46,165 bases of DNA. Origin: Candidatus Gastranaerophilales bacterium (GTDB lineage Bacteria > Cyanobacteriota > Vampirovibrionia > Gastranaerophilales > Gastranaerophilaceae). The stretch spans positions 1 to 46,165 of the forward strand of contig CALVEU010000004.1 in NCBI GenBank assembly GCA_944326635.1, read 5' to 3'. A program made the position numbers and the translations under genes. This document shows, in pieces, positions 39,186 through 40,706 of the stretch. Under the pieces are notes generated by a model that saw only the letters and a list, made by a program, of their open reading frames with translations, was not told the origin of the DNA and did not search any database. Each line of letters begins with the position of its first letter. Positions within the stretch are counted from its first letter, which is position 1.

Positions 39186-39437
39186 TTAACCTACATATTG
39201 TTCTTCTTGTATTGCTAAAGCTGCTACTTGATTAGAAATAAAACAAACTTTTTTCAAAGGACCTAATGTATCTTTTTCAATCAAAGTCGCAGCAGGACTT
39301 TTTATTGCTTGTTGTAATTCAGCATAAAGTTCTTCAGGTTTTTCAACATATAAAACTAAAGGTGCTGTAGAACCTTTTAAAAATACTAAAACTGAAATTC
39401 TTTTTTTTATATTTTGAGCATTAAATTGTTGTGCCAT
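39186..39437 (-). CDS. Hypothetical protein heading the yceD-rpmF-plsX-fabH operon (83 aa)
   Basis: This is a compact alpha/beta protein (RISVLVFLKGSTAPLVLYV, then a helix, then GPLKKVCFISNQVAALAIQ) with no recognised family. AAAGGAG precedes the ATG. It lies 8 nt upstream of yceD and is the first gene after a near-consensus promoter, so it should be transcribed with the ribosomal and lipid genes. The pattern of strands suggests a small binding domain; nothing more can be said. Confidence 0.65.
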   Translation of the reverse strand: MAQQFNAQNIKKRISVLVFLKGSTAPLVLYVEKPEELYAELQQAIKSPAATLIEKDTLGPLKKVCFISNQVAALAIQEEQYVG

Positions 39438-39508: not shown

Positions 39509-39527
39509 ATAACATAATATATGTTAT
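39509..39527. promoter_or_regulatory. Palindrome just upstream of the fab-operon promoter
   Basis: ATAACATA-ATA-TATGTTAT is a perfect 8+3+8 palindrome that ends 4 nt from the -35. It may be an activator or repressor site. A related ATAACATATATTAT occurs at 39840-39853. Confidence 0.45.
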
Positions 39528-39554
39528 GTGAATCTAATCAAATAATTTTAATGT

Positions 39555-39600
39555 TGTATATTCTTTTCTTTTGTTGCGATGCAAAAGAAAAGAATATACA
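39555..39600. repeat. 19-bp perfect inverted repeat (hairpin)
   Basis: TGTATATTCTTTTCTTTTG and its exact complement are separated by the 8-nt loop TTGCGATG. There is no T-run and no upstream gene to terminate, so it is probably part of the repetitive spacer and not a terminator. Confidence 0.75.
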
Positions 39601-39626
39601 TAAGAAAAGAAAACACGCAAACCGTC

Positions 39627-39757
39627 TAATCACTACTAAACTCAACTTAAAACGAGTGAACTCGCTATATTTTAGTCATTCTGAACTTGTTTCAGAATCA
39701 AAAATTTTACCACTCAAACAACACTCGTTTTGTCATTGTTTCGTTAAGTAGTGATTA
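39627..39757. mobile_element. MITE-like nested inverted-repeat element
   Basis: The ends are TAATCACTACT (39627-39637) and its complement AGTAGTGATTA (39747-39757). Inside are AAAACGAGTG (39649-39658) and CACTCGTTTT (39722-39731), and at the centre ATTCTGAA-CTTGT-TTCAGAAT (a widespread dispersed palindrome). The 131-bp unit has no coding capacity. TA bases at both ends would fit a TA target duplication, but copies elsewhere are needed to show mobility. The rest of the 474-bp gap between 39438 and 39911 holds the promoter, palindromes and tpiA terminator listed separately, and otherwise nothing I recognise. Confidence 0.5.
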
Positions 39758-39853
39758 TAAAATCCCCCTGCCTGGAAGACCCATCGGAAATAAATTATTC
39801 AATAAAATTTATTATTTAATTAATAACATTTTTATACTCATAACATATATTAT

Positions 39854-39886
39854 AAAAAAAGACAGGATTATAAAAAATCCTGCCTT
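39854..39886 (-). terminator. Terminator of tpiA
   Basis: On the minus strand, AGGCAGGATT pairs with AATCCTGTCT (one G-U) and is followed by T6, about 20 nt after the tpiA stop. Confidence 0.85.
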
Positions 39887-39911: not shown

Positions 39912-40706
39912 CTATTTCATTAATTTCATAGTTTTTTCAATAATTTCGTTTAAGCTATCAGCTTTTAATGAAGCTCCACCAATTAAAGCTCCATCGATAT
40001 CTGATTTAGACATTTGTTCTTCAATTGTAGAAGGTTTAACAGATCCACCGTAAAGAATTCTGATAGAATCAGCAGCAGAAGCACCTGCAACTTCTTTTAC
40101 AACGTTTCTGATCATAGCGATTACTCTGTTAGCTTCATCAGCATCACAAGTTTTACCAGTTCCGATAGCCCAAATTGGTTCGTATGCAATAACTGATTTT
40201 GCAACATCTTCTGAAGAAATACCTTCTAATGCTGCTTTGATTTGAGATGCGATATGAGAATCTGTAACACCAGCTTCTCTTTGTTCTAATGTTTCACCAC
40301 AGCAGATGATAGGAATTAATCCACCAGCTAATATAGCTTTTGCTTTTTTGTTAATCATTTCATCAGTTTCTGAGAAATATTGTCTTCTTTCAGAGTGACC
40401 GATAATTACATAATCACAACCTGCATCTTTCAACATTTCAACAGAAATTTCACCAGTATAAGCACCTGATTTTTCCCAGTGGCAGTTTTGACCAGCAATA
40501 GATATTTTGTTACCGCCACAACCGCAATCACATCTTACAGATTCTACTGCTGCAATTGATGTAAATACAGGAGCAATTACTACTGTAGGTAATTCTTGTG
40601 CTGTGTAATCTTTTACAAAATTTTTAATACCTTCAAAAACTTCTTTAGCTTCTGAACGGCATAAATTCATTTTCCAGTTTCCTGCAATAATAGGTTTTCT
40701 AGACAT
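39912..40706 (-). CDS. tpiA: Triosephosphate isomerase
   Basis: It interconverts dihydroxyacetone phosphate and glyceraldehyde 3-phosphate. Catalytic residues are N10 and K12 (GNWKMN), H104 (IGHSERR) and E176 (AYEPIWAIGTG); the phosphate loop GGSVKP is also present. An unusual cysteine cluster (RCDCGCGGN, residues 58-66) lies just before the AGQNCHWEKSGAYTGE strand, and further cysteines occur at 136-137. The length (264) is slightly longer than usual because of that insertion. AAAAGGAGAG precedes the ATG. It is a single gene with its own promoter and terminator. Confidence 0.97.
   Translation of the reverse strand: MSRKPIIAGNWKMNLCRSEAKEVFEGIKNFVKDYTAQELPTVVIAPVFTSIAAVESVRCDCGCGGNKISIAGQNCHWEKSGAYTGEISVEMLKDAGCDYVIIGHSERRQYFSETDEMINKKAKAILAGGLIPIICCGETLEQREAGVTDSHIASQIKAALEGISSEDVAKSVIAYEPIWAIGTGKTCDADEANRVIAMIRNVVKEVAGASAADSIRILYGGSVKPSTIEEQMSKSDIDGALIGGASLKADSLNEIIEKTMKLMK

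Follow-up and report, generated by a model that had tools for sequence, protein, structure and literature searches.

A dispersed non-coding element of Gastranaerophilales chromosomes with inverted dif-like sites at its ends and interiors in both orientations at orthologous sites

The DNA analysed here, called the window (46,165 nucleotides), stems from a Candidatus Gastranaerophilales genome that is assembled in 149 contigs and is 92.6% complete (G000). A 131-base unit (39627-39757) is situated in the 474-bp gap between tpiA and a gene for an 83-amino acid protein. In an earlier note on the window it had been described as a non-coding element, possibly a MITE, with three nested inverted repeats around one shared centre and with TA at both borders. 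It was verified that the three inverted repeats are present. As single-stranded DNA the 131 bases fold with -19.9 kcal/mol, compared to -9.1 kcal/mol (sd 2.5) for 200 dinucleotide shuffles (z -4.4), and none of the shuffles folded equally well, showing that the nesting is more than chance. Other parts of the description had to be revised. The centres lie at about 39692, 39690 and 39687, i.e., within 5 bp of each other rather than at a single point, and the TA belongs to the inverted-repeat arms, which it terminates, and does not represent a flanking duplication. The proposed 131-bp boundary was also not that of the true unit: filled orthologous sites revealed that 39627-39757 is the inner unit of a longer, 342-bp element (39513-39854), which additionally includes a 19-bp hairpin and 15-bp inverted ends at 39513-39527 and 39840-39854. 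The full element encodes no protein either, and it folds with z = -7.9. The features of the locus are the following:

39186-39437, minus strand: gene for an 83-amino acid protein, without NCBIfam family match
39513-39527, plus strand: left dif-like end, CATAA-TATATG-TTAT, with the outer XerD-type half, the 6-bp spacer and the start of the inner XerC-type half
39555-39600, plus strand: hairpin P1, 19-bp perfect arms at 39555-39573 and 39582-39600, which covary in relatives
39602-39613, plus strand: third, direct copy of the P1 purine arm, AAGAAAAGAAAA (by eye, unscored)
39627-39757, plus strand: inner unit with stem P2 (39627-39636 and 39748-39757) and stem P3 (39649-39658 and 39722-39731)
39627-39637 and 39747-39757: outer inverted repeat, TAATCACTACT/AGTAGTGATTA
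39649-39658 and 39722-39731: inner inverted repeat, AAAACGAGTG/CACTCGTTTT
within 39627-39757, plus strand: conserved boxes of the inner unit, CTCAAC / AACTCGC / CTCAAAC / GTTTCGTTAA
inside 39675-39699: central palindrome, ATTCTGAA/TTCAGAAT
39675-39699, plus strand: REP of the CGTC/TGTC type, situated in the apical loop and reading GTC-ATTCTGAA-CTTGT-TTCAGAAT-C
39766-39788, plus strand: remnant of a second, inverted half-unit (CCTGtCTGGAAGACCCATCGG; by eye)
39840-39854, minus strand: right dif-like end, inverted, ATAA-CATATA-TTATA, with the same 6-bp spacer as the left end
39912-40706, minus strand: tpiA, named by reading the translation

The inner XerC-type half of the left end is degenerate in the window copy (TTATGTGAATC), and the terminal base of the right end is A, while it is G in relatives. 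Judged from the degenerate XerC-type halves and the changed terminal base, the window copy may be inactive. The orthologous elements of G007 and G018 still have the second, inverted half-unit in intact form, and in many full elements (L058, L059, L065, L115 and others) it ends in a hairpin followed by CCTGTCTGGAAGACCCgCCGGAGG. The P1 arms and the third copy of the purine arm (39555-39613 and loci L046-L064) co-vary between copies; because all three segments change together, the purine arm could pair in two alternative ways.

Related units were sought with a covariance model of the unit alone, which was built from 24 sequences. As the earlier note had anticipated, they are scattered in the genus: units were found in 27 of 33 genomes, in addition to 6 of 25 genomes from other genera of the family and none of 39 outside the family, with a maximum of 32 units in one genome. 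G000 contains two, the one at 39627-39757 and a diverged one on contig C11. When 97 related genomes were searched by blast with 39540-39775, 61 of them had matches (E<=0.001, short REP matches counted too), and many of these matches were 200-bp copies spanning the hairpin 39555-39600 and the 131-base unit. The pattern of conserved boxes occurred in 57 stretches of GTDB genomes, mostly with titles of Candidatus Gastranaerophilales or uncultured gut bacteria, and three matches in records of actinobacteria (Adlercreutzia, Eggerthellaceae, Blastococcus) appear to be due to chance. The elements are 276-645 bp long and non-coding, with AT-rich targets and chromosomal flanks. At blastn sensitivity they had no match in 50,697 phage or 72,556 plasmid records, and spread by phages or plasmids was rejected on these grounds. 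One full unit was seen adjoining the terminase gene of an IMG/VR tailed-phage contig (L202, IMGVR_UViG_3300032007_004085, positions 240-640), which also encodes a major head protein and an endolysin. It has another inverted end (ATAATTTTGTTGCA) at its borders and is devoid of dif-like sites, indicating that units can move without dif-like ends. At two further loci (L139, L121) elements were inserted near RNase P RNA genes, as judged by Rfam matches, and the L139 element directly follows a terminator-like hairpin and T-run.

The locus of the window was compared with its orthologs. Of 30 loci around the 83-aa gene, 12 had tpiA placed adjacent and could be evaluated. The site was filled in five species (G000, G007, G018, G016, G015) and empty in seven (G031, G001, G026, G004, G028, G010, G012). 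Among the 18 loci without tpiA in the stretch, G017 and G019 have an end-like remnant at the corresponding place. A second site was identified via one pair of joined flanks. It is empty in G000, G007, G026, G004 and G031, with 19 nt between the anchors, and is occupied by 338-547-bp elements with both ends in ten genomes and by inserts with at least one end in three further genomes (G017, G010, G008), several other genomes being too diverged to be read. A single-copy element present at the same place in all relatives, which the earlier note had named as the finding that would speak against mobility, is thus at odds with the two units in G000 and the seven empty tpiA sites.

The ends were characterized using 55 elements with both ends recognisable (110 ends), a set that leaves out elements with ends too worn. 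They were collected with fixed arm letters and a free spacer triplet and deduplicated on the interior. The consensus from XerC to XerD is ACTTCCnATAA-YATNNN-TTATGTAAA, or ACTTCCnATAA-YATNNN-TTATGT in a shorter rendering, of which ACTTCC was not imposed by the collecting pattern, whereas the TAA, AT and TTA.G parts were. The dif site of Bacillus subtilis is given as ACTTCCTAGAA-TATATA-TTATGTAAACT, i.e., ACTTCCTAGAATATATATTATGTAAACT, in the part of PMC3025954 that was available. The element ends have the layout and nearly the letters of this site, with two 11-bp half-sites, a 6-bp centre and recognisable XerC and XerD halves. The outer 5 bp of the XerD-type half are weakly conserved, and the window copy has worn arms. 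There is little conservation past ACATAA in the outer arm, and ACATAA itself belongs to the element and arrives with it. Matches to ACTTCCNNNAANNNNNNTTATGTNAA (exact or with one mismatch) are mostly element ends in element-rich genomes; in G022 there were 13, compared to 0 in the reversed control. A search for a chromosomal dif gave no convincing candidate at 2 mismatches in 12 genomes, many of them element-poor. Prediction of dif has also failed for Cyanobacteria according to the same part of PMC3025954.

The 6-bp spacer was the same at both ends in 50 of the 55 elements, and in the remaining five it was one base off in each case. When the two ends of an element were compared, the spacer had a mismatch rate of 0.015 per base, while the rate was 0.49 for the inner 13 bp and 0.58 for the outer 10 bp. 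The within-element kappa reached 0.94-1.0 at each variable position of the spacer and did not exceed 0.35 elsewhere. With a slightly modified pattern, a previous count had yielded identical triplets in 47 of 51 elements, compared to 5.6 in shuffles. Related copies are not independent, and thus one element per spacer was also considered: there are 20 distinct spacers, and 17 of the 20 remained concordant, showing that a single founder cannot account for the agreement. By their sequence, the ends are dif-like and do not correspond to those of an ordinary transposon.

Four orthologous sites were compared between species, and at three of them the interior lies in opposite orientations between the same flanks. 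These are comparisons of assembled genomes of different species, not observations within one population. At the tpiA site the interior of G007 has the opposite orientation to that of G018 (398 bp at 91%) and to that of G000 (218 bp inverted against 46 in the same orientation). At another site the interior of G030 runs opposite to those of G017 (335 bp at 93%) and G016 (377 bp at 79%), and at a third the same holds for G014 when compared to G016 (307 bp at 89%) and to G024 (291 bp at 89%). At the fourth site the orientation is the same in all three genomes compared. Instead of inversion in place, related elements could have been inserted independently into the same hot spots. The spacer triplets at the second site, which differ by species (AGT, ACT, GGA, ATT, GTT, TAT), are in line with this, and elements that were inserted independently and in opposite orientations might look like an inversion in some of these species pairs. 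However, the inverted interiors are near-complete and the junctions are the same, as in G007 and G018, and therefore we regard independent insertion as a rather doubtful explanation, albeit the strongest of the alternatives.

In-place inversion would be explained best by the recombinases XerC and XerD, which usually act at one dif site per chromosome. Tyrosine recombinases are encoded in all 13 genomes tested, and exactly two each in G000 and G010. In G018 one of the pair matches XerD with 331.1 bits (cut-off 329.6), and the other is a XerC/XerD-type protein with 318.6 bits, under the XerD cut-off. The two frames in G000 are shorter and below the cut-offs, with XerC and XerD as best matches. 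Six of the 33 genomes of the genus have no unit; five of these six were among the genomes tested (G031, G012, G028, G004, G002), and all encode tyrosine recombinases, which shows that Xer alone is insufficient to bring the elements in. As none of the 12 genomes yielded a chromosomal dif, binding of the ends by the host Xer proteins is putative.

The mobile element is real: it is dispersed and non-coding, its inverted ends are dif-like, and its orthologous copies include inverted ones. On the present data it is likely to be a non-autonomous, hairpin-rich, Xer/dif-bounded invertible mobile module. A Xer-type recombinase would pair both ends and exchange strands within the 6-bp overlap. The exchange would flip the interior and turn any mismatch between the spacers into a heteroduplex, which replication would resolve so that one spacer would be present at both ends. 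The interior consists of hairpins with stems that remain paired although their sequence changes. It is tempting to speculate further that, throughout a lineage of gut bacteria related to Cyanobacteria, dozens of gene-less chromosomal "mini dif modules" are kept invertible by the host chromosome-dimer resolvase, that each inversion overwrites one spacer, and that the modules spread as folded single-stranded DNA hairpins. We put this forward tentatively, as possible rather than likely; if true, spacer identity would be a running record of in-situ Xer exchange. The insertion step is not explained by ordinary Xer integration, because no dif-like target was visible by eye in the empty sites and the outer arm of the ends is weak.

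The interior is strongly structured. In an alignment of 112 units (110 distinct), which was fitted to the structure and thus leans towards it, 95.2% of the stem cells were standard pairs, 577 cells had two-sided changes compared to 156.5 in shuffles, and the covariation score was 0.509 compared to 0.167 in shuffles and at most 0.117 in slid controls. A smaller MAFFT alignment, for which the structure was drawn from the same sequences, yielded 95.4% paired cells and a score of 0.467. Between conserved boxes, P3 has about two dozen versions that differ in sequence but remain paired. This strong covariation could point to a structured RNA or a transcription-linked element between tpiA and the next gene, e.g., a terminator or an mRNA-stability element, kept for its RNA fold. 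Among all cells the mismatches were GT 52 and AC 61, and without the two helix-end pairs GT 25 and AC 44 (p 0.03, with cells that are not independent). The plus strand thus has no wobble preference, and the minus strand shows a weak hint, because an A.C excess on the plus strand would be G.U on the minus strand, which is the strand of both neighbouring genes. However, this bias is small, both orientations occur at the same site, the site is empty in most of the evaluable species, and no Rfam family scored above the gathering score on 18 loci except RNase P of neighbouring genes. A role as RNA is unlikely, although an RNA on the minus strand is conceivable, and the interior is probably a structured single-stranded DNA cargo or a folding scaffold.

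Paired changes could also arise by template switching at replication between the arms of an inverted repeat, which would homogenise the arms and flip the interior without any recombinase. Such a process is described for RNA hairpins and for coding inverted repeats in the available parts of PMC8794818 and PMC8604942. It is a good explanation for the P2, P3 and REP stems, in which mismatches are rare and whole stems (P3 and P2) have been replaced. For the ends the situation is different: their agreement stops at the 6-bp spacer (mismatch per base 1.5%, versus 49% over the inner 13 bp), a limit that template switching would not be expected to observe. As an account of the whole element it is therefore quite improbable.

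Equally improbable is a classical MITE, i.e., a deletion derivative of an insertion sequence whose inverted ends are recognised by a DDE transposase that duplicates TA. The short, non-coding, dispersed elements of 276-645 bp with inverted ends and AT-rich targets would suit it. It was revealed, however, that flanks of 1-5 bp are identical in 5, 12, 2, 2 and 0 of 31 elements, compared to 4.5, 9.7, 4.3, 1.0 and 0.3 expected from random pairing, and a TA-duplicating MITE was rejected on these statistics. No gene-sized copy with these ends was present among 47 pairs up to 7.5 kb, and no larger end pair was noticed as an autonomous partner among the pairs listed for the 33 genomes. Moreover, a classical MITE lacks end agreement limited to the spacer and dif-like arms. 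Of the MITE idea of the earlier note, the dispersed non-autonomous mobile unit has therefore held, while the 131-bp border and the TA duplication have not; likewise, the empty sites it had suggested were found at two loci, without the expected trace of a duplication in the flanks.

The core of the inner unit, GTCATTCTGAACTTGTTTCAGAATC, has 24 copies in G000 with at most 3 mismatches, several of which are paired changes. With its GTC tag, 8-bp stem and 5-nt loop its sequence fits the CGTC superfamily of REPs, although the base before GTC is variable, mostly T, and A in the window copy. CGTC/TGTC REPs have a CGTC/TGTC tag, an 8-9-bp stem starting A-T, T-A and a 4-5-nt loop, and they are listed for Proteobacteria, Chlorobi, Bacteroidetes, Spirochaetes and Thermotogae, as far as the available part of PMC3733652 goes. 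The core at 39675-39699 resembles the family-2 type; behind its GTC tag it forms a stem of 8 bp, which begins with A-T, T-A, and a 5-nt loop. In contrast to the REPs in that part of PMC3733652, the host phylum is outside the list, and the REP is nested as one module in a larger unit. No match to the Y1 (TnpA-REP) transposase family PF01797 was found in the 92.6% complete genome G000, while the control matched 5 of 14, and a RAYT-driven REP was rejected for this reason. An integron attC has complementary RYYYAAC and GTTRRRY core boxes; this identity was rejected by eye, because ACTCAAC faces GTTTCGT instead of GTTRRRY.

Several known systems resemble the elements in part. The dif modules of Acinetobacter Rep_3 plasmids are bounded by inversely oriented XerC/XerD (pdif) sites, and the elements share with them the inversely oriented end sites, the mostly identical spacers and the interiors that are inverted at three of four sites. 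According to the available part of PMC13141974, such modules contain genes and have been reported only from Acinetobacter. The Gastranaerophilales elements, in contrast, are chromosomal, non-coding and dispersed, and none had a blastn match in the plasmid records. The attP of CTXphi folds from two inverted dif-like sequences. IMEX (CTXphi, VGJphi, TLCphi, GGI) make use of the XerC/XerD of their host and of dif-like sites that have a central region, as described in the available part of PMC5357621. They are phages or islands that insert at the chromosomal dif, whereas the elements have inverted sites and no dif in their targets. Invertons are phase-variable intergenic DNA with inverted recombination sites and an interior found in both orientations; the elements share these two properties, but no promoter or gene switch was identified here and the evidence is between species only. 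MITEs and ERIC/Correia-type repeats are short, non-coding, dispersed, intergenic and palindromic, and the elements differ from them in having no detected target duplication and in their dif-like ends with concordant spacers. In the available parts of the REP/MITE, dif-module and dif-like-repeat literature, no description of such elements was found for Gastranaerophilales/Melainabacteria. The presence of such chromosomal elements, dispersed and with inverted dif-like ends, in another phylum would point to Xer-driven local inversion at many sites, and it would supply dif-arm sequences for a group for which dif prediction had failed. The 20 spacers in 55 elements would be a natural data set on the evolution of recombination overlaps, and with the family it can be tested directly whether paired changes in inverted repeats are caused by structural selection, by template switching or by site-specific exchange.

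Three exact REP copies with a regular spacing of 183 bp were observed inside a tandem repeat of G000 (L003, G000:C25:20409-20799). Other REP copies are seemingly situated inside reading frames (L019, positions 1501-1525, G000:C11:17311; L007; L025). The L019 copy apparently encodes a CHPELVSGS-like stretch, and the in-frame copies resemble the REP-derived peptides in Rickettsia genes.
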